Virus record (IMG/VR): IMGVR_UViG_3300027971_000189
Location: 1 to 26,698 of that record
Direction: 5' to 3' (one strand)
DNA from: a virus
Length of the DNA: 26,698 bases
Shown: in pieces, positions 4,012 to 23,316 of the stretch
Layout of the letters: every line of letters starts with the position of its first letter
Position numbering within the stretch: the first letter of the stretch is position 1
Notes under the pieces: generated by a model
Told to the model about the DNA's origin: nothing
Database searches by the model: none
Seen by the model: only the letters and a program-made list of their open reading frames with translations
Made by a program: the position numbers and the translations under genes

Positions 4012-4479
4012 TCAAGCGGCTTTGTTAAAGTATTCATTAAGTTGTTTGTCGGTCAGTATCTGACCATCACGCATAGTGAAAACTGCACGGTAGTTATCAC
4101 GCTCACCGCCGGGGAGCATATCATACTCTTCGGTCTTGCGTTGAATTTCACGGCGCATGTAACCGTACTCATCGTTCTCTATGTTGCGGGTAGCAATCCA
4201 ACGTCCACCAACATAACGGAGTTCGAACGGGGTTTCCCACTCTTGGGCTACCTTGTCACCGTCATCGGCGATGTACCAGTCGACCACATACTCCTCAAAA
4301 CCCTCGTTACGTACCTCAATGAGGGCCGTTAACGTCGGGATACCTGACTCTTTAACCTTAAGAACTTGAGCCGGGGTAAGATTGGGCACAACATAAACGT
4401 CACCGCCCTTGAACTTCCAGTAGGGGGTGAGGGCAGAACCGTAGTTTTCGCGGATTTGAGTGTTGATGACGATTTTCAT
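4012..4479 (-). CDS. Conserved phage protein of unknown function (155 residues)
   Basis: Starts MKIVINTQIRENYG and carries YWKFKGGDVYVV near residue 20. This N-terminus recurs in small proteins of many large phages, as far as I recall, but no function is assigned. The rest is rich in charged and aromatic residues (EEYVVDWYIADDGDKV) and ends EYFNKAA. It is the first gene after promoter P3, and CGGAGC lies 5 nt before the ATG. The P3 leader is identical to that of P5. GC-rich codon use (for example GCCGGGGTA, ACCGCCGGGG on either strand) contrasts with the AT-rich genes on both sides. Confidence 0.8.
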   Translation of the reverse strand: MKIVINTQIRENYGSALTPYWKFKGGDVYVVPNLTPAQVLKVKESGIPTLTALIEVRNEGFEEYVVDWYIADDGDKVAQEWETPFELRYVGGRWIATRNIENDEYGYMRREIQRKTEEYDMLPGGERDNYRAVFTMRDGQILTDKQLNEYFNKAA

Positions 4480-4483
4480 ATCT

Positions 4484-4540
4484 GCTCCGTTGTTTAACTG
4501 TTTAAGTCTCTATTATAGACCCAAATCGATTAATTGTCAA
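4484..4540 (-). promoter_or_regulatory. Sigma70 promoter cassette P3 (57-nt unit, identical to P5)
   Basis: Perfect TTGACA at 4540-4535, 17-nt spacer with TTAATCGATTTGGG, perfect TATAAT at 4517-4512, then a leader ending ACAGTTAAACAACGGAGC. All 57 positions match 5074-5130. Just upstream, CCCAAATTTGG pairs with the spacer's TTTGGG as an inverted repeat around the -35 box. It drives the 155-, 70- and 56-residue genes. Confidence 0.95.
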
Positions 4541-4560
4541 CCAAATTTGGGGTGTTGTTT

Positions 4561-4830
4561 TTAAGCAACATCCTGCTCTGCGTACTCAAAAAGAATGTAT
4601 TTTGCACGATTCAGGGCTTGACGGGCGTCCTCGGCTCGCATGGAATCAACCTCGCCGTACTCCAAATTAATCATTTCCTGAACATCAGACAATAGACTGG
4701 CAACCATCATTGCAGGGGTAGTACGCTTTAAACGCTCACCAACTACTTTACGCATACCGGCCTCGGTCACACCGTACATACGAACTTCACGCTTTTCCTG
4801 CTCTGTCAAACTGTTGTAAACTGCTGTCAT
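4561..4830 (-). CDS. Unknown small protein (89 residues)
   Basis: Starts MTAVYNSLTEQEKREVRMYG and ends LFEYAEQDVA. It looks mostly alpha-helical, with TEQEKREVRMYGVTEAGM and a second half of Ala/Arg/Asp-rich helices (RAEDARQALNRAKYILFEY). I recognise no domain. It is a single gene behind promoter cassette P4, with CGGAGC 6 nt before the ATG. The 4554-4571 region at its 3' end contains a weak TGTTG...CAACA stem before P3. Likely an early host-directed protein by context, but the function is unknown. Confidence 0.75.
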   Translation of the reverse strand: MTAVYNSLTEQEKREVRMYGVTEAGMRKVVGERLKRTTPAMMVASLLSDVQEMINLEYGEVDSMRAEDARQALNRAKYILFEYAEQDVA

Positions 4831-9387: not shown

Positions 9388-12177
9388 TTATTTACCCAAT
9401 AATCGTTTGATAGTATCTAGGTCTTCTTGACCTTCAAATGTTTTACCAATTGATCCCATACTACTATCATCTTCCCCTTCAGTCATTACTTGGTCAATAA
9501 GTTTTTTACCACCGTACAATACGGCTAATAGCATACCTAATGGTATTGCATATTTAGCCGCAGCCGCTGCTAGATCACCAATAGTTTTACCATCGATTGC
9601 ATTACCAAGAATGGTAGTTAATGCGCTTGCTGCGGATGTTGCATCAGTATAAACTTTATTCAGTCCTTGAGGAATTGATTTACCAATCTCATCTGCCATA
9701 GAATAAATACCGGCCCCTAGTCCAACTTTACCTGCATTTTGAGCTGTTGATTGTGCTGCTGACTTACCAAGTTCTAAAGCACCTTTACCAACTCCAGTGG
9801 CTGCTTTACCAGCCACTTCAGCACCGGCTTTTCCTGCGGTAGATGCCATACGGCCTAATGCAGGACCTGCACGAGACAATAATGGTAATAATGCTCTTGC
9901 GCCAGCCGCTAATGCAGGTGCAAGAAAGGCAAACTCATTAAGTTGGTCTTCAGATAATTTATTGTCATCGGCTGAATCTCTTCCCATCATTTGTCCTGCG
10001 GTTCCTCCTGCAGCACCACCTAAAACTCCACCAAGTGCGGCTCCTGCTGGACCGCCGGCTAATGCTCCCAAAGCTGATCCAGCTAATGCGCCGCTGGCTC
10101 CGCCTAATGTGCCACCTGCTAATTCTCCTGCTACACCTTCGCCCAATAATCGTTTGATAGTATCTAGGTCTTCTTGACCTTCTCTAATACTTTCACCACC
10201 AACCAATTTGCCTACAGCGCCCTGTGGGCCAACCTTTTCATATGGGCCCAATTGTCCAACACGCTTTTGGTTAGCATCAAGGTCTTCCGCCACACCTTTA
10301 TGGTCAGTCTTGTCTACTGACATTATTTTATTAGTGCCGTCACCCATATATAATTGATTGTTAAATTTGTAGTATAACTTATTGGGAGTTGGTCCAAATT
10401 GACTTGGGTCCCCGGGATCTTTTCCATCCATCTGTAGAGCAAGACTACGCATCAATACAGCAAGTACCCTAAGCGGTTCGTTAAATTTTGCTGTATATGG
10501 GTCTTGTTTAGTTCCTGAGCCGCCTTCTATTGTTCTATTCCAAAGTTCTCCATCTTTTGCAAAAATATTATCGGAGTTGAAAAATTTGCTCTCTTTCATA
10601 TCTTGGGATTCAAACGGTATAATTGGTTTCTTTCCAACTTTAGGAATACCGCCAGCTGGGCTAACTCTAGTTGCTAGTCTATTACCTAAACTTTTTACTT
10701 CTTTACTGGTATCTGTGAAACTAGGATTCATATCATAAAACTTTTTTTGTTTTTCATTCATCCAACTAGTATCTAAACCTTTTTCCACCATATCTTCTCT
10801 GACTAAACTACCTTTGGTAACTCTTTCAATGTCTCGCTTGATTTGTGCTTTTTGTTCCAAAGTCTGTGCTTGGTCATATTTCACAGCCATTTTTTGTAGT
10901 ATGGCTTCATCTTCACTACTAATATATGCTCCCAATGCACCTACGATTCCTAAACCAGCTAAGAACTTTCTTATAGCTCCCTTGCCTTCATCAAGCTCAG
11001 ATTCAGGAATTCCCATTGGATTGGACGACGTTTCACCTTCTTTTAATCCTAAATTCATAGCTGCAAGATACGCTCTAAGGGTTTCTTTTTCTTGAGAAGT
11101 TAATGGTTTACCTGATTGTAATTTACTTTTTAATAAACGAATATAACCGGTATCATCACCTTGTTTATATTCATTTATTATGCTATCAGCCCACTCTTCT
11201 AATTGATTGATTTCTTTCATTTCACTTACCTTTTTATATAATTTAGAAAGAATTGGCATTACTGACTCAATTCTAGGATCAATTGTTTCTTGAACAAATA
11301 GCTCGTTAAGACTAACTTCTTCTGTAATTTCTTCACTTAGGATAGGTTGCCATGATTCAAAGTATGCATTATAACCACGACGGCCGATCATTCTGCTTAG
11401 TGTTTCTCTTAATGCCTGATAATGATTAACACCCTCTTGTATCAATATATTGGTAGATTCATTAAACTGTTTATTTTTAGTGGCTCTAACAAAGCCAGCC
11501 ATTTTTGTATATTCTTCTACAAGTGAAGTAATATGACGACCTCTATCATCATAAGGTGAACCACCTTCAGCAATATGTCTAGCATATACTTTGGCTATAC
11601 CAGGCTTGTTACTTGGCACAGCAAATCTTTCACCCATTGTGTTTTCTACAAATATCTTATCTATATTACGATACCTTTGCTCACCTTCACCAATTTGGCG
11701 AGTATGCTGAATAATTATCTTAACATTGGGCACAGCATCACTATAGCTACCTCTTTTACCCATTGGATAATAACTCTCACCTAAATTTTCTTTTTCTTTA
11801 TTATATGTTCTTTGAGCCATATCCTTAGATAAATGATTTTTATTTTTCAATTCAAAATCTAGTTGCTTACGTTGTGACCACTGCTTAAGCATATTTCTAA
11901 AACTTGACCAACTATCACTAAATTCAGTTCCTGAGGTATTAGTATCAGGGCTATCTTCTATTTCATCGCCATAATATAGTACTAAATTTCTACTGTTGTC
12001 AATAGTAACATAAACTTTACCATATGCTTTACCATCTTTTTCAAAAGTAAATCTGAAAATATCGGCTTCTTCAGGTGATGTAGTTTTTTCTTCGGAATCC
12101 AATGGAGTTACGTCGTCGTATCTTACGGTTAGTAAATCATAAAGGCCACGGTTAAGAGTATCAGTTTGTATAGGCAT
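9388..12177 (-). CDS. Large unknown protein (929 residues) with glycine-zipper region
   Basis: I do not recognise a family. Residues 1-300 look globular and charged. A hydrophobic Gly/Ala segment lies near 405-425 (RKFLAGLGIVGALGAYIS). After residue ~690 comes a long Gly/Ala-rich stretch with GxxxG repeats (GGTLGGASGALAGSALGALA and on), further Ala/Gly helices, and a likely membrane segment near the C-terminus (AIPLGMLLAVLYGG). The peptide EGQEDLDTIKRLLG occurs twice, before the Gly-rich part and at the very C-terminus, because of a 41-nt exact DNA repeat. Glycine zippers and amphipathic tails are typical of membrane-inserting or DNA-ejection proteins, so an internal virion protein is my best guess. 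A late box lies 8 nt upstream of the ATG; no clear Shine-Dalgarno is seen. Confidence 0.88.
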   Translation of the reverse strand: MPIQTDTLNRGLYDLLTVRYDDVTPLDSEEKTTSPEEADIFRFTFEKDGKAYGKVYVTIDNSRNLVLYYGDEIEDSPDTNTSGTEFSDSWSSFRNMLKQWSQRKQLDFELKNKNHLSKDMAQRTYNKEKENLGESYYPMGKRGSYSDAVPNVKIIIQHTRQIGEGEQRYRNIDKIFVENTMGERFAVPSNKPGIAKVYARHIAEGGSPYDDRGRHITSLVEEYTKMAGFVRATKNKQFNESTNILIQEGVNHYQALRETLSRMIGRRGYNAYFESWQPILSEEITEEVSLNELFVQETIDPRIESVMPILSKLYKKVSEMKEINQLEEWADSIINEYKQGDDTGYIRLLKSKLQSGKPLTSQEKETLRAYLAAMNLGLKEGETSSNPMGIPESELDEGKGAIRKFLAGLGIVGALGAYISSEDEAILQKMAVKYDQAQTLEQKAQIKRDIERVTKGSLVREDMVEKGLDTSWMNEKQKKFYDMNPSFTDTSKEVKSLGNRLATRVSPAGGIPKVGKKPIIPFESQDMKESKFFNSDNIFAKDGELWNRTIEGGSGTKQDPYTAKFNEPLRVLAVLMRSLALQMDGKDPGDPSQFGPTPNKLYYKFNNQLYMGDGTNKIMSVDKTDHKGVAEDLDANQKRVGQLGPYEKVGPQGAVGKLVGGESIREGQEDLDTIKRLLGEGVAGELAGGTLGGASGALAGSALGALAGGPAGAALGGVLGGAAGGTAGQMMGRDSADDNKLSEDQLNEFAFLAPALAAGARALLPLLSRAGPALGRMASTAGKAGAEVAGKAATGVGKGALELGKSAAQSTAQNAGKVGLGAGIYSMADEIGKSIPQGLNKVYTDATSAASALTTILGNAIDGKTIGDLAAAAAKYAIPLGMLLAVLYGGKKLIDQVMTEGEDDSSMGSIGKTFEGQEDLDTIKRLLGK
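9395..9435 (-). repeat. 41-nt direct repeat, copy 2 (C-terminus of the 929-residue gene)
   Basis: Identical to 10142-10182. Encodes the C-terminal EGQEDLDTIKRLLG. The copies are 747 nt apart, a multiple of three and in the same reading frame, so recombination between them would delete 249 codons cleanly. Confidence 0.97.
10142..10182 (-). repeat. 41-nt direct repeat, copy 1 (before the glycine zipper)
   Basis: Identical to 9395-9435 and in the same frame. Encodes EGQEDLDTIKRLLG directly before the Gly/Ala-rich region. Confidence 0.97.
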
Positions 12178-13769: not shown

Positions 13770-14039
13770 CTATTTGGAAAAAGGATCTTCGCCTGTAAGA
13801 TGTGGTTTTGCAAACATAACTTTGAACCAAGCTTGATCACCAGGTTTGATATTATTCTCACGAATATATTGTGCTTTTTTAGCATTTAGTTCATGGTCTA
13901 CGGTTGCTGATTCACCAGTAATTTTACCAGCTCCACTTAATCTTTTTAAATCGTCAAGAGACATGTCCTTCTCAGGAACTGTGTCCCTGAGTTTAGAATA
14001 ACTACGCTGTATTTTTGCTTGTTGGAATGGATCGAACAT
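13770..14039 (-). CDS. Small protein in the position of the small terminase (89 residues)
   Basis: Starts at ATG 14039 (MFDPFQQAKIQRSYSKLRD) two bases after the stop of the fibre gene; an upstream in-frame TTG at 14057 would overlap the fibre gene and has no ribosome binding site. The N-terminal half is helical and basic, the middle has MSLDDLKRLSGAGKITGESA, and the C-terminus is KPGDQAWFKVMFAKPHLTGE. The position directly before the large terminase is that of gp16 in T4, but gp16 is about 164 residues and I see no clear DNA-binding motif. I treat the small-terminase role as possible only. Confidence 0.7.
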   Translation of the reverse strand: MFDPFQQAKIQRSYSKLRDTVPEKDMSLDDLKRLSGAGKITGESATVDHELNAKKAQYIRENNIKPGDQAWFKVMFAKPHLTGEDPFSK

Positions 14040-14041
14040 AA

Positions 14042-16750
14042 TTAATTCAAATACCAAGTTGTACCCACATAAGTAGCAATTATTATTTGACCCTGTTGAC
14101 TAGGTTGATTACCGACTACTGTAGCAGGACTTTGTGCGGCAATAGTAGTGCCAGGGTTGCCTGTGTGAACTGCATCGGCAATTTGATATTGACGACCGGT
14201 TGAAGCACCGTTTGCTGCGTTGGGTAATGTGATAGTTTTATTTTTAGTTGTAGTACCAATCCAATAATCACTATTAGTTGCGGTGTAGTTTACTGCTGTT
14301 AAGTGCGTACCAACTGTCCAACCACTAACATTTATAGCACCGTTAGCATCACGCACTACAATTGTATTTGCTGTATTTGCTGTAGTAGCATCTGTAATGA
14401 TGGTAGCCGTATTACCTACAGTAGTTGCTGCAATATGATTGCTACTATTTAATGCATTGGGTAATATAGTAGTAATTGCACCAACACCAGGATTAACTAC
14501 CCAACTTAAAGTATTTGACCCGTTAGTCTGTAAAATATAATTAGCACCACCACCTGCTATATGTAGGTTTGCTACAGAACCAATATTAACGTTGCTGGCA
14601 TTAGCAAAGTTAACCACACCATTGCTTGTCAAGCCAGTTAGTGTACCTACACTAGTTATATTTGGTTGAGCATTTGTATAAACAGTACCTGCAACAAGAG
14701 CATTTGCAACTTGACCTACAATGTTACCAGCTGGTAAACCTGTTAGTCGGCTACCGTTACCAATAAAGTAATTTGCTTGAGAATTGCCCGGCGTTACCAA
14801 ACCAGTATTACTGATTGTTAGAACAATGTCATTGCTTGTAGTACCACCTGCTACAAACTTAATAGTTTTTGCTGCCGTGTCAGTACCAATGACTAGATTG
14901 CCCTTATTCATGTACAAATAACCATCATTTGCTAATGTGCTACTGAATGCCGGATCAGTATAGTTACTGCCATTAATACCTAAATCAATGAAATGATTAC
15001 CATCATCACCTATGTCATTTACTAAAACTAAGTCACTTGATGCTTGTGTACCAAGACTATGATTTTGACTTATGATTTGACTATAACTGTTGACATTGGC
15101 ATCTACTTGAACATAGGCATTTGGATAGTCTAATGCTTCGTTTAATAATCCAAAATGTCCACCGTTCTGAACATTTAAGAAATCAATGCTGGCGTTGGCT
15201 GCGTTAAAATCCAATGTTGTTAAATTAGCTCCGTCGGTGTTCCATGCATTGTTTGGTAAGTCATAAAGAATACTTACTTTGTAACTTGAACTATTGTTAC
15301 CAAGAACAATACCACCCTGATCAATCTGACTGTTACTTGTTGAGTTAGCTGCCAAGTATAATACTTTGCTATCTAGGTTAGCACTGTTAGCAGTGGTTGT
15401 CGTACCGTTGACTGTTAAGTTACCGGTAATTGTTAAGTTAGCAAAAGTCAAGGTTGAACTTGTGTTCAAATCCTGCGGGGCACTGATGTTGAAATTTTGT
15501 CCACCTAAATCAGTGACAATGATTCTGTTTGCTGTACCGGTGATGCTCTGTACACCGATAGCGTCTATACCAACATCACCTACTGTAGTAGTTTGCGATA
15601 GGCCAACACCAACTGTTACACTGGTAACTGCGCTGGTATCATTGAAGGCTGTATTTTGGTAAGTATTATCAGCAAAGGTAATACCACCGTTACCAGGCAG
15701 TGTTAAATTGCCATCTGTACCAAAATTCCATATATTACCATTGGAAATAATGTTGATATTTGAATCGGAACTTACGTTAGCGTTTCCGGCTACATCTATA
15801 ATAATATTACCAGGCGTTGTTAGGTTGCCATCTAGTCCAAATTGCCAAGTGTTGAATACTATGCCAGCATTGCCTACACTGGTTTGTACATAGGCTCCGT
15901 CATCCTGGGCATAGAATTGTTGATAACCTGTGTCACCGTTGGTAATACCGGCTGCCTGTCCCGGAGCACCTGAGATAAATCCATTAATAATTGTAGAGCC
16001 ATCTGGTAATGTTAAATTACCAGCTACACCAAAGTTCCAAGTATTACCAACTTCAGTACTAGTATTGCCTACAAATAAGTTTAATCCGTTTCCTACAGCA
16101 TCATCAACTGCTATAATGCCACTTGGTGGCATTATTAATCTACCTACAGTGTCACTATCAAATAAGAATGTATGACCTTTGGATTTGATATAAACGTTTC
16201 CACCAGCATCTAAGGTAAGATCATCAGATAAAGGACTAATAGTTGAATTAGCCGGTACAGTTAAATTACCGGTACTGTCAAAAATCCAACTATAACTGTT
16301 GATATTGACTTCTAAATTACCATTTGGGTTCTCTATGTTAGCATAACTGGTATCATTAAAAATTTTATTAGTATTAATATCAGTAAGTTGTGACCCGTTA
16401 CCTATAAAATAACTAGCGTTGACATTTCCTGCTAGATTGGCATTGCTGCCATCAAAAATAAAATTAGCAGAACCATAAAAGTTCCCATCGCCGTTATTAA
16501 TTTGTACTGCATTTACTGGACCGCCTGGTTGACCATTACCAACAGGTCCGTTAATTAGAAATCCACCGGGGGTATTGCCATCACTATAATAGAATGCATT
16601 TAAGTCAGGGTTCCACCAAATACGGCCTTCTTGACCTACAAAATTTGCTGCATTAGCAGTAGCTTCCTGTACATTGCCGTCTACGAAGTTATCACGGCTA
16701 GTAAATAGTTTCTGAATAAAAACTGTATTGTTGGTGTTACCATTACTCAT
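14042..16750 (-). CDS. Repetitive fibre-like virion protein (902 residues)
   Basis: Asn/Gly/Thr/Ser-rich, low in charged residues and free of Cys, as in phage fibres. At least five degenerate repeats of the pattern WxFGxxGNLTLPxxGxI lie at about 153-170, 193-212, 238-255, 301-318 and 341-357. YFIGNGSQLT (about 114-123) recurs later as YFIGNGSRLTGLP. The N-terminus (RDNFVDGNVQEATANAANF, then GRIWWNPDLNAFYYSDG) may attach to the virion. The C-terminal domain (from about 800; NKTITLPNAANGASTGRQYQ and ending TYVGTTWYLN) may be a receptor-binding or trimerising tip. AAGGAG lies 6 nt before the ATG. A tail fibre or virion decoration is likely; the exact role is unknown. Confidence 0.85.
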   Translation of the reverse strand: MSNGNTNNTVFIQKLFTSRDNFVDGNVQEATANAANFVGQEGRIWWNPDLNAFYYSDGNTPGGFLINGPVGNGQPGGPVNAVQINNGDGNFYGSANFIFDGSNANLAGNVNASYFIGNGSQLTDINTNKIFNDTSYANIENPNGNLEVNINSYSWIFDSTGNLTVPANSTISPLSDDLTLDAGGNVYIKSKGHTFLFDSDTVGRLIMPPSGIIAVDDAVGNGLNLFVGNTSTEVGNTWNFGVAGNLTLPDGSTIINGFISGAPGQAAGITNGDTGYQQFYAQDDGAYVQTSVGNAGIVFNTWQFGLDGNLTTPGNIIIDVAGNANVSSDSNINIISNGNIWNFGTDGNLTLPGNGGITFADNTYQNTAFNDTSAVTSVTVGVGLSQTTTVGDVGIDAIGVQSITGTANRIIVTDLGGQNFNISAPQDLNTSSTLTFANLTITGNLTVNGTTTTANSANLDSKVLYLAANSTSNSQIDQGGIVLGNNSSSYKVSILYDLPNNAWNTDGANLTTLDFNAANASIDFLNVQNGGHFGLLNEALDYPNAYVQVDANVNSYSQIISQNHSLGTQASSDLVLVNDIGDDGNHFIDLGINGSNYTDPAFSSTLANDGYLYMNKGNLVIGTDTAAKTIKFVAGGTTSNDIVLTISNTGLVTPGNSQANYFIGNGSRLTGLPAGNIVGQVANALVAGTVYTNAQPNITSVGTLTGLTSNGVVNFANASNVNIGSVANLHIAGGGANYILQTNGSNTLSWVVNPGVGAITTILPNALNSSNHIAATTVGNTATIITDATTANTANTIVVRDANGAINVSGWTVGTHLTAVNYTATNSDYWIGTTTKNKTITLPNAANGASTGRQYQIADAVHTGNPGTTIAAQSPATVVGNQPSQQGQIIIATYVGTTWYLN

Positions 16751-17947: not shown

Positions 17948-18340
17948 TTATTTTCTTTTGTAACCAGCAAAGGGCTTATGTGGGCTTACTTTATTAATAA
18001 AGTCCGGTTCTCTTCTGTCATCATCTGTTGCTGATTGAACTGGGGTACCGATAGAAGTATAAGCATGGTGCAACATATCATGCTCTTCTTTAGTGTAAGG
18101 AGCAGCCATATTACTTCTACCAACCCAACTTTCTCCAGTTGGTTCATGACTAAATGCTTTTCCATTTGAACTTGCAACTGCCATCATAGCACGATTTAAA
18201 TCATAAGTTCTATCAGCAGTACCGGCTACTCTATGAATCATGCCCATAACCGATTTTGCATCTGAATGCAATTTACCTTTTTTCTTACCATGCGATCCAT
18301 CGTCTGCTGTAGCTTCAAATATAAATTCTGTTGCTCTCAT
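17948..18340 (-). CDS. Putative internal head protein with capsid-targeting N-terminus (paralogue 3)
   Basis: 130 residues. Starts MRATEFIFEA and ends PHKPFAGYKRK. In T4 the internal head proteins begin MKTYQEFIAE and are cut by the gp21 prohead protease after that Glu; MRATEFIFE|A fits this rule. The middle part (SWVGRSNMAAPYTKEEHDML and HHAYTSIG) is basic and His-rich, and differs from the two paralogues next door. The ATG at 18340 overlaps the preceding stop (ATGA). I infer a DNA-bound protein packed in the head and injected with the genome; no enzymatic motif is visible. Confidence 0.75.
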   Translation of the reverse strand: MRATEFIFEATADDGSHGKKKGKLHSDAKSVMGMIHRVAGTADRTYDLNRAMMAVASSNGKAFSHEPTGESWVGRSNMAAPYTKEEHDMLHHAYTSIGTPVQSATDDDRREPDFINKVSPHKPFAGYKRK

Positions 18341-18699
18341 CTTGCATATCCTTTAAACGGTTTTATTGGGCTAGGCTTATTTTCAGGTGAAAATTCATAC
18401 CCAGATGACATTGGCACTGCTTTTTTTCCACCAGGAATATTAATATATCCTAATGCTTTATTTATTATTGATCCATCTTCATACTGTGTTGACACTATAG
18501 CATTTTCACTAAAAGGACTTTCCCCTGAAAACTCACCATCATTTCTTTTCTGACCATCCCTAACTTTATCCCAATCACCTTCCTCACTTCTAGCTCTAGC
18601 GATAGCGACCCCAAATCTATAAATTTGATAAGGATCTCCTGAAGTTAAATCAGGGATGATGAACAAATTTCTTTCAGTAATGAATTCTTTTGCTCTCAC
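18337..18699 (-). CDS. Putative internal head protein with capsid-targeting N-terminus (paralogue 2)
   Basis: 120 residues. Starts MRAKEFITERN and ends PSPIKPFKGYAR. Shares with the next paralogue the order IPDL...DPYxxYRFxVAIAxA, then a charged stretch, PFxExxIV, and the C-terminal PxKPFKGY. EFITE|R matches the (L/I)xE cleavage rule of T4-type prohead proteases. It overlaps both neighbours by ATGA. Function as injected or head-internal protein is inferred from the N-terminus only. Confidence 0.75.
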   Translation of the reverse strand: MRAKEFITERNLFIIPDLTSGDPYQIYRFGVAIARARSEEGDWDKVRDGQKRNDGEFSGESPFSENAIVSTQYEDGSIINKALGYINIPGGKKAVPMSSGYEFSPENKPSPIKPFKGYAR

Positions 18700-19079
18700 C
18701 TTTTGTAACCCTTAAATGGCTTCATTGGGCTAGTTTTGGTAACATCGCTAGTTTCTTCACTTTTGGGTGTACTTACCCTCTTTTTACCTTTCATACCCAT
18801 AGCTTTAAGTGCATCATCAATGTAAGGCCCTACATCATGGCCATATGATACTACGATTTCGCTTTCACCAAATGGTCCTTCTCTAGACATACTGCTAACA
18901 CCATCTTGTTTACGTTTTTCAGCGCCTTTTGCACCTGCAATTGCTACTGAAAATCGGTACTGTAGGTAAGGATCTTGATTTGGTAATTCAGGAATTATAT
19001 AAGTGGCAGGAAGAGCACCTGCTTGAGCAGGTACTAATTTTTCTTGTAAACTCTCAGTAATGAATTCATGTGCTCTCAT
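18696..19079 (-). CDS. Putative internal head protein with capsid-targeting N-terminus (paralogue 1)
   Basis: 127 residues. Starts MRAHEFITESLQEK and ends TSPMKPFKGYKR. EFITE is nearly the EFIAE of the T4 capsid-targeting sequence. The body has IIPELPNQDPYLQYRFSVAI followed by basic residues (KGAEKRKQDG), PFGESEIVVSYG and GMKGKKRVS. It is a clear paralogue of the 120-residue neighbour and shares both ends with the 130-residue one. It overlaps the upstream fibre-like gene by ATGA, so all four genes are translationally coupled. Confidence 0.75.
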   Translation of the reverse strand: MRAHEFITESLQEKLVPAQAGALPATYIIPELPNQDPYLQYRFSVAIAGAKGAEKRKQDGVSSMSREGPFGESEIVVSYGHDVGPYIDDALKAMGMKGKKRVSTPKSEETSDVTKTSPMKPFKGYKR

Positions 19080-19615
19080 ACTTGCTCTGTAGTTATAAAC
19101 AATTCATTTTCTGTAGACATGTCAAATCCTTCTACGTAACCATCTAGCTGTAGATTTAGACCAGGAATATCAACACCAATAAAAGTAACCTGAGAAGAGA
19201 TAAAATGTAGTAAAGTAGCGTTTCCAATAGGATTGACTAGTACACGGACGTTAGAATTGAACACATCCATATCATAATTAGTAATTGCATTTCCATTAAT
19301 GGTAGTACCATAACCGGTAAATCTTACACTAGCATTATCATTTGTAATCTGTGCTGAAAGCGTAATGTCTTGGCTATCTGATGTTAATGGGTTACTTGAT
19401 CTAATTTGAAGCATGGCCTGTGTAAAGGTTGCAACAGGAGCAGTATAAATTACTTGATTGGCAGAATTTCCTATAGAATACGCAGTGGACGTACTAAACG
19501 TGGTGTTGAATAAACTGGTAAAATTATTGTTTATTTTAGCGAAAGCCGTACGTAACGGATCACCTTGTCCATCGTTAGGAGATGTACCTATATTAATGAT
19601 TTCTTGTGTAGACAT
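19076..19615 (-). CDS. Fibre-like virion protein (179 residues)
   Basis: Starts MSTQEIINIGTSPNDGQGDP followed by LRTAFAKINNNFTSLF. The pattern IxIGxxxNDGxGDxLRxAFxKxNxNF is a widespread N-terminal module of phage tail-fibre and structural proteins. The remainder is Asn/Thr/Ser-rich beta sequence ending ENELFITTEQV. The length suggests a short fibre, decoration or adaptor. GAGG lies 9 nt before the ATG and is partly within the stem of a hairpin that also holds a late box. It heads the operon with the three putative internal head proteins. Confidence 0.82.
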   Translation of the reverse strand: MSTQEIINIGTSPNDGQGDPLRTAFAKINNNFTSLFNTTFSTSTAYSIGNSANQVIYTAPVATFTQAMLQIRSSNPLTSDSQDITLSAQITNDNASVRFTGYGTTINGNAITNYDMDVFNSNVRVLVNPIGNATLLHFISSQVTFIGVDIPGLNLQLDGYVEGFDMSTENELFITTEQV

Positions 19616-19644: not shown

Positions 19645-19920
19645 TTATTTTTGATTTACATCTTCAAATATTTTTTTCTGTTCAGTATACCATTCTTGCC
19701 AACCTTCAACTTTGGTTGCACAATTATAGTATGTTACATAGTTTTCTACTACTGTTTTTAACATGTCTGTAATTGCTACCTTATCACTATTTTCTACAGG
19801 CTTTAATGGTTCACATTTTTCTGATAATGCTGTGGGGTATGGAGGAAATTTACGCTCTATAGGAACAGGTGTGGCAGCACAGGCTGATAATAGTAATATC
19901 AATGGTATTAACTTTTTCAT
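19645..19920 (-). CDS. o-spanin (outer-membrane lipoprotein, Rz1-like)
   Basis: 91 residues. Lipoprotein signal: MKKLIPLILLLSAC with lipobox LSAC and lipidated Cys14. The mature part begins AATPVPIERKFPPYPTAL, Pro-rich as in o-spanins, and continues with a helical, charged segment (EGWQEWYTEQKKIFEDVNQ). It would sit in the outer membrane and join the i-spanin to fuse the two membranes at lysis. Its ATG overlaps the stop of the upstream i-spanin gene (ATGA), the usual separate-gene spanin arrangement. Good call from lipobox plus partner. Confidence 0.8.
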   Translation of the reverse strand: MKKLIPLILLLSACAATPVPIERKFPPYPTALSEKCEPLKPVENSDKVAITDMLKTVVENYVTYYNCATKVEGWQEWYTEQKKIFEDVNQK

Positions 19921-20384
19921 TTCTTCTCTCCCGAAGATTGATTAGTTAAGTTTATAACTTTGTTATGTTGCTCAATAATTTCTTGTGGTACTGGGCAGTT
20001 TTCTATATACTTGATAATCTCTTCTTTTTTAACGATTTCTTTATCAATATATTTGATTATATCATCGCCCTTTTGTTTAATTACTTTGGTTTTGTTGACA
20101 ATCTTTTCTTGTATTTCTACTGTTTTTTCTACAGCTTTAGTTTCAGATACAGCAACTTTGGCTTCAACTTCTTTTACTTTCATCTGCCATAGTCGTTCAT
20201 TTTCTAACCCGCCTTCTAAGTATAAGGCAAGAGTTAGTACTAATATACTGATAATCTGAATAGGGAGTTTATATTTACCTATGAATGGTATAAACCCTAA
20301 TACGAACCCTAGTATTACTCCAAAAATACCAACTGACAATAAAACATGTATGGCATAACTAGGTAAAACAGATAATATCCACAT
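19917..20384 (-). CDS. i-spanin-like inner-membrane protein with coiled coil
   Basis: 155 residues from ATG 20384 (MWILSVLPSYAIHVLLSVGI); an in-frame TTG at 20405 would add 7 residues but has no ribosome binding site. The first ~65 residues hold two to three hydrophobic spans (VGIFGVILGFVLGF; PIQIISILVLTLALYL), more than the single anchor of lambda Rz. Then comes a long charged heptad-rich helix (about 70-150, KVKEVEAKVAVSETKAVEKT and on), expected in the periplasm. With the overlapping lipoprotein gene it forms a Rz/Rz1-type pair. The extra spans could mean a combined holin-like function. A GATAAATAT late-type box lies 5 nt before the ATG. Confidence 0.72.
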   Translation of the reverse strand: MWILSVLPSYAIHVLLSVGIFGVILGFVLGFIPFIGKYKLPIQIISILVLTLALYLEGGLENERLWQMKVKEVEAKVAVSETKAVEKTVEIQEKIVNKTKVIKQKGDDIIKYIDKEIVKKEEIIKYIENCPVPQEIIEQHNKVINLTNQSSGEKK

Positions 20385-20388
20385 GCAT

Positions 20389-20397
20389 ATATTTATC
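20389..20397 (-). promoter_or_regulatory. Possible late promoter box for the spanin genes
   Basis: GATAAATAT on the minus strand, the same box as upstream of gp32. It is only 4 nt from the ATG at 20384, so an mRNA started here would be leaderless or would begin inside the gene. Weak on its own. Confidence 0.35.
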
Positions 20398-20410
20398 TGC
20401 CTCAAATAAT

Positions 20411-20659
20411 TTAATCAAATTTTAACTTGAAAAAAGTGTACTTTTCTCTGGGCAATTTAGCGGTAACACAATACCTATAACCAAATGTATCATGATCCAG
20501 GTGTCTATGCCAAGTTGGTAGTTCTATAGAATTTTCCATAATCCACTTACCCTTTTCTGTTTGTTGAAATTCCCAAAGGGGTTGAGCGGCATAGATATCA
20601 GGATCTTCAGCATCACCTACACTGAAGTAATGTACTTTAGTTTCTATATAGTCTTTCAT
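20411..20659 (-). CDS. Conserved phage protein of unknown function (82 residues)
   Basis: Starts MKDYIETKVHYFSVGDAEDP and contains PTWHRHLDHDTFGYRYCVTA followed by KLPREKYTFFKLKFD. Rich in aromatic and His residues. No domain that I recognise, though similar short proteins seem common in T4-like phages. The ATG overlaps the thyA stop (ATGA), so it is made with thymidylate synthase. Confidence 0.78.
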   Translation of the reverse strand: MKDYIETKVHYFSVGDAEDPDIYAAQPLWEFQQTEKGKWIMENSIELPTWHRHLDHDTFGYRYCVTAKLPREKYTFFKLKFD

Positions 20660-23079: not shown

Positions 23080-23316
23080 TCAAGACCAAGCCAACTCATA
23101 AAGAATTGCTTCTTTAGGGTCTTCAAATGCAGGAACAAATTTCTTATTTCTTGTTATATAATCACTAGCTTCAATTAATGCGAACCTACCTCGAAGGTTA
23201 TTAAGAATCCAAAATTTAGATTCTTCGGTAACATGGGTACTAGTCGTAACGAAATGTGGAGGTTTGAAAGAAACTTCCCTAGTACTAAACCAAGTTGTAA
23301 AATCAATATCCGTCAT
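23080..23316 (-). CDS. Unknown small protein (78 residues)
   Basis: Starts MTDIDFTTWFSTREVSFKPP and ends DPKEAILYELAWS. Mixed alpha/beta character and no motif. Its ATG overlaps the stop of the 135-residue gene (ATGA). It closes the small-gene run that begins with the VWA gene. Confidence 0.75.
   Translation of the reverse strand: MTDIDFTTWFSTREVSFKPPHFVTTSTHVTEESKFWILNNLRGRFALIEASDYITRNKKFVPAFEDPKEAILYELAWS

Follow-up and report, generated by a model that had tools for sequence, protein, structure and literature searches.

In phage T4, the first 10 residues of the internal protein IPIII direct it to the prohead core, the protease gp21 removes this tag, and ejection delivers internal proteins into the host (PMC9026906, PMC3012670, PMC9391042). 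Packaging needs no more than these 10 residues, of which residues 8 and 10 govern processing (PMC9026906). Once in the host, IPI acts as an inhibitor of a restriction enzyme, and on one wild strain the phage requires IPIII (PMC9026906, PMC3012670, PMC9391042). It has been proposed in the T4 literature that the rule of one tag for many cargoes is general (PMC9026906). The jumbo phages SPN3US and phiKZ contain many head-loaded proteins, whose N-terminal propeptides are trimmed after Glu (PMC5694885), and polyvalent-protein effectors of the ART-PolyVal type are predicted to be injected with the DNA (PMC5512222).

Injected proteins act before phage gene expression and are hard to predict. A recognisable short tag would list candidates for host takeover or counter-defence in jumbo phages without cultured hosts, and it would allow a test of whether T4-type jumbo phages in general follow the T4 rule. 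Here we describe three tandem genes in a 26,698-nt viral record (a 26.7-kb fragment, referred to as the window, meaning the whole stretch analysed). They probably encode internal head proteins of the T4 type in a jumbo phage, which would be packaged by means of a tag, cleaved by a gp21-type protease and ejected with the DNA.

Organization of the three-gene array

The terminase encoded in the window is nearest to those of the jumbo phages PA5oct (~49% identity) and Phosso (~48%), and is more widely T4-like. The three genes are located at the position given in the earlier note, on the minus strand, with starts following MRAxEFIxE and ends following SPxKPF(K/A)GYxR. The features are listed below, with an arrow at the predicted cut.

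18696-19079, minus strand: gene 1, an ORF with ATG start, 127 aa, MRAHEFITE↓S...SPMKPFKGYKR; 80 relatives kept and included in the family alignment
18337-18699, minus strand: gene 2, an ORF with GTG start, 120 aa, M/VRAKEFITE↓R...SPIKPFKGYAR; 47% identity to gene 1
17948-18340, minus strand: gene 3, an ORF with ATG start, 130 aa, MRATEFIFE↓A...SPHKPFAGYKRK; 26% identity to gene 1
19053-19079, minus strand: N-terminal tag of gene 1, MRAHEFITE, predicted to serve as a capsid-targeting propeptide, with the cut after Glu9
18673-18699, minus strand: N-terminal tag of gene 2, M/VRAKEFITE
18314-18340, minus strand: N-terminal tag of gene 3, MRATEFIFE
18699-18731, minus strand: C-terminal segment of gene 1, SPMKPFKGYKR, family-specific basic tail with motif matches confined to the family
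18340-18372, minus strand: C-terminal segment of gene 2, SPIKPFKGYAR
17951-17986, minus strand: C-terminal segment of gene 3, SPHKPFAGYKRK
19076-19615, minus strand: upstream overlapping gene, its N-terminal part like a baseplate wedge/tail-fibre connector protein (PHROG matches)

Each of the three genes shares 4 bases with the gene upstream of it, which for gene 1 is the connector-like gene. In a six-frame translation of the whole window, both end motifs are seen in these three ORFs only. A probable spanin pair, composed of an inner-membrane protein and a small lipoprotein recognised by eye, is located just upstream of the tagged array (19645-20405).

The three proteins align from end to end, those of genes 1 and 2 being 47% identical and that of gene 3 26-28% identical to the others. 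This full-length alignment identifies them as paralogues, not as a constant frame around unrelated payloads. The middles, described in the earlier note as strongly diverging, remain recognisably related, and its idea of a variable-payload cassette is half borne out, since the three middles are homologous.

A family of small proteins in uncultured jumbo phages

Gene 1 gave 219 matches in IMG/VR, of which the best 80 were kept, on contigs of up to 524 kb. Three viral scans and a 72-member profile yielded 185 distinct complete family ORFs, all from uncultured viral contigs. The loci mostly contain two or three members (range 1-3 in a first survey, in which some arrays were truncated at contig ends). 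A terminase gene is found in 47 of 54 long loci at a median distance of 1.5 kb. In addition, a homologue of the gp9/gp10-like upstream neighbour is present in 35 of these 54 loci, usually adjacent, with a median distance of 0 to the array.

Searches of Pfam, PHROGs and PDB sequences with the 72 members returned chance-level or weak unnamed matches only. Searches of cultured phage records gave no relatives above chance, and none were found in bacterial or archaeal genomes, so prokaryotic genomes provide no hint of the host. The AlphaFold model is composed of helices and coil at low confidence (pLDDT 68, pTM 0.36), a level at which no fold argues for any function, and a Foldseek search with the predicted structure gave no significant match.

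The N-terminal tag is shared by unrelated proteins

The tag is kept in 181 of the 185 complete unique family ORFs. A DNA pattern for MRAxEF has 45 matches in ten related contigs, and the pattern M-R-x-x-E-hydrophobic-hydrophobic-x-E has 35 in five contigs, against 0 for either pattern reversed; the matches are therefore not due to chance. Moreover, the codons of the tag vary synonymously, indicating that selection acts on the peptide.

Elsewhere in these jumbo-phage genomes, the same tag opens proteins that bear no relation to the small family. After removal of the first 12 residues, 44 tagged proteins fall into 11 sequence clusters, and the starts in the ten clusters other than the small family show no detectable similarity beyond the tag. 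Pfam domains among the tagged proteins comprise ART-PolyVal together with GNAT, GNAT, GH19, DUF6321 and LRV. An exact tag specific to each lineage was considered and rejected, as MRARDFLTE, MKPSEFINE and MKINEIITE occur mixed on one contig.

This portability bears on whether the shared ends reflect ancestry only, the start being a conserved N-terminal helix of a paralogous family without a targeting role. Homology does extend along the entire length of the three proteins and of the wider family, as such a reading would have it. Ten clusters with nothing but the tag in common, together with an information content of 3.6 bits per column in residues 1-9 of the family versus about 2 in its core, make it scarcely credible.

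No description of the tag in jumbo phages was found in the open-access literature, and that one tag covers so wide a range of cargo in these phages may be new. If the reading as a packaging tag is true, reading the tag in a genome would by itself suffice to list which proteins the phage injects.

The tag resembles a prohead-protease site

In the family, position 5 of the tag is E (rarely D), position 7 is I, V, L or M and position 9 is E, whereas position 8 is free; position 10 (P1') is mostly G, S or A. The T4 protease gp21 requires a hydrophobic residue at P3 and Glu at P1 and leaves P2 free. The tag pattern fits such a site, with the cut predicted after Glu9. The protease gp21 itself (PF03420) is present in five of six related contigs, as is full-length gp23 (PF07068); this co-occurrence is read from the related contigs, the window being a 26.7-kb fragment. 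Their head genes follow the T4 order of portal, core-like, protease, scaffold and capsid, and gp23 has the sequence KKQLLAE↓SSAGTT close to its N-terminus (site predicted). The 11 unrelated clusters, the signature of a hydrophobic P3 and Glu P1, and the presence of gp21 and gp23 in relatives agree with the earlier suggestion of a T4-type capsid-targeting N-terminus.

Four of the 185 members are untagged. Two of them (in L032 and L034) are fused behind another protein, and two (in L282 and L283) have a longer N-terminus. The untagged members keep a hydrophobic-x-Glu before the mature part (VNE↓G, IYE↓A, IRE↓G), which is suggestive of a retained cleavage site, although the remnant of an old tag would look alike. 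In the two fusions (L032:7476-8366 and L034:5774-6508), the family domain is located behind another protein, ParB-like/DUF6321-like in one and metalloprotease-like by eye in the other. These fusions are possibly polyproteins separated by the prohead protease.

The N-terminal motif might instead recruit the proteins to the tail, the membrane or an infection-time compartment without any proteolysis. The array adjoins tail-like and lysis genes, and head localisation in these phages is deduced from sequence, both of which leave room for such a destination. We nevertheless regard it as very unlikely, since a free P2 between a fixed P3 and P1 is the signature of a protease, T4 loads its heads by a tag of this kind, and tagged genes are found directly beside gp23 as well, with three of them adjoining this major capsid gene in the contig L141. 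The tandem tagged genes of L141 (L141:188-1904, G001), which begin MRINELLNE, MRITEIITE and MRINEIINE, are kinase-like by eye.

Tag-like starts in T4 and PA5oct

A pattern with the T4 spacing, run against T4 itself, returned ipII, ipIII and 61.1, and 0 when reversed, which is in line with the likeness to T4 N-termini drawn previously; the pattern misses ipI and is thus incomplete. Both ipII and ipIII begin MKTYQEFIAE. The uncharacterised T4 61.1 (NC_000866.4:18966-19130) begins MKTFKEFIKE, resembling a capsid-targeting sequence.

PA5oct is a cultured relative in whose record virion proteins are flagged by ESI-MS/MS. Five of its seven tag-like annotated starts are MS-positive, against 93 of ~445 genes overall, under an expression widened post hoc. 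The corresponding Fisher test (p = 0.005; 0.012 with one alternative start) is partly circular because the expression was loosened after the N-termini had been seen. With a stricter expression, two of three annotated starts are virion proteins. The MS-positive tag-like proteins are gp333 (MKINDIITE, adjoining the portal), gp246, gp104, gp105 and gp279; no member of the small family was found in PA5oct. The virion mass spectrometry of PA5oct weakly favours packaging, in part post hoc.

The C-terminal segment

The pattern S-P-x-x-(P/A/G)-F-x-G-(Y/F) has seven matches in five jumbo contigs, and all seven lie in small-family arrays. A general second signal at the C-terminus was rejected on this ground, and the constant C-terminal signal proposed in the earlier note is not supported. 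In the family, FxG(Y/F/W) occurs in 155 of 185 members and an S-P-like element in all 185. In more distant members, only the SP element and a basic tail are left, the FKGYKR being replaced by endings such as SKKKKNKYGV. The last 13 residues have a median net charge of +4, compared with -3.5 for the rest of the mature protein. On the simplest reading, the C-terminal motif is the basic tail of the family domain. Lysines of the T4 internal proteins contact DNA phosphates (PMC3012670), and by analogy a DNA-contact role is possible for this tail.

Comparison with known head-loaded proteins

Like T4 IPII, IPIII and IPI, the family members are small proteins with an N-terminal tag of about 10 residues that ends in hydrophobic-x-Glu, their genes lie side by side, and a gp21 protease is encoded in the same kind of genome (here, in related contigs). 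They differ from the T4 proteins in that the tag has nine residues, MRAxEF(I/V/L)xE, and that the family shares a C-terminal SPxKxFKGYxR segment, which is absent from other tagged proteins; moreover, we infer their packaging and cleavage from sequence. Homology to IPI, IPII or IPIII was not detected: the 72 members gave no notable PHROG or Pfam match, and tblastn gave no match in T4. In its sequence features the family matches the T4-type tagged internal proteins; by the tests used, it is not homologous to the T4 proteins. T4 internal proteins are described as basic, whereas the mature family proteins are not uniformly so (median pI 7.9), which counts against reading them as internal head proteins.

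Similarity to T4 Alt and the polyvalent-protein effectors is found in other tagged proteins of the same phages, which carry ART-PolyVal and GNAT domains. In contrast to Alt and the polyvalent proteins, the enzymes here are separate tagged proteins of moderate size, and the three window proteins contain no recognisable enzyme domain. The ejection proteins of SPN3US and phiKZ are likewise head-loaded proteins of jumbo phages with propeptides ending in Glu (predicted in the present case), but their propeptides mostly exceed 100 residues and the phages belong to another lineage, whereas that of the family is short and T4-like (PMC5694885).

Proposed route and role of the proteins

The T4-like route is the simplest account in view of the portability of the tag, the site signature and the machinery in relatives. 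Residues 1-9 (MRAxEFIxE) would act as a capsid-targeting sequence and bind the prohead scaffold core. A gp21-type prohead protease would then cut after Glu9, so that the head would contain mature proteins of ~111-121 residues, whose basic C-terminal tails may contact the packaged DNA. By analogy with T4, the proteins are probably ejected with the DNA into the host at infection. A role of the mature proteins early in host takeover or counter-defence is suggested by analogy only.

Packaged and cleaved proteins could also function within the head, as parts of the core or in DNA condensation, with no role in the host cell. Such a function would suit the charge of the C-terminal tails, the position of the array, which stays at one place by structural genes and the terminase in many phages, and the observation that T4 IPIII also affects head morphogenesis (PMC9026906). 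We consider it unlikely, because tandem paralogues with diverging cores and one to three copies per locus look more like evolving effectors, and the same tag is found on clear enzyme cargo such as the ADP-ribosyltransferase and GNAT proteins. Beyond the preferred reading of the three genes as ejected internal proteins, a common nine-residue, protease-removed code might deliver at least 11 unrelated protein types in uncultured jumbo phages, the small family, ADP-ribosyltransferase/GNAT and GH19 proteins among them, with the basic tail of the small family retaining a link to the DNA during ejection. We advance this broader proposal tentatively, the balance being somewhat against it.

Other proteins with possible links to the head

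Several small proteins in related contigs (L144:3851-4258 and 4470-4811; L145:5508-5855; L146:5549-5848) contain diverged pieces of gp23 in their N-terminal parts, and most of them share the C-terminal ending ..RFRDxKDYxWFxLRW. Two of the pieces correspond to residues 43-108 and 50-99 (33-35% identity, E 5e-7 and 7e-6; PF07068 E 2e-12 and 2.6e-7), and a further piece to residues 322-349 (50% identity, E 0.005). The first segment coincides in position with the Gol peptide of T4 gp23. These small proteins are possibly capsid-peptide mimics. Two window ORFs, 23080-23316 and 20411-20659, end similarly by eye (AFEDPKEAILYELAWS and YTFFKLKFD) and may belong to the same gp23-mosaic family.

The 929-aa predicted virion protein of the window (9388-12177) contains EGQEDLDTIKRLLG twice, once inside and once at the C-terminus. 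A 95-aa ORF (13770-14057) has LDDLKRLSG, and in related phages the gp22-like scaffold proteins end in IDIKRLAGL. The likeness among these three sequences may represent a second head-assembly motif.
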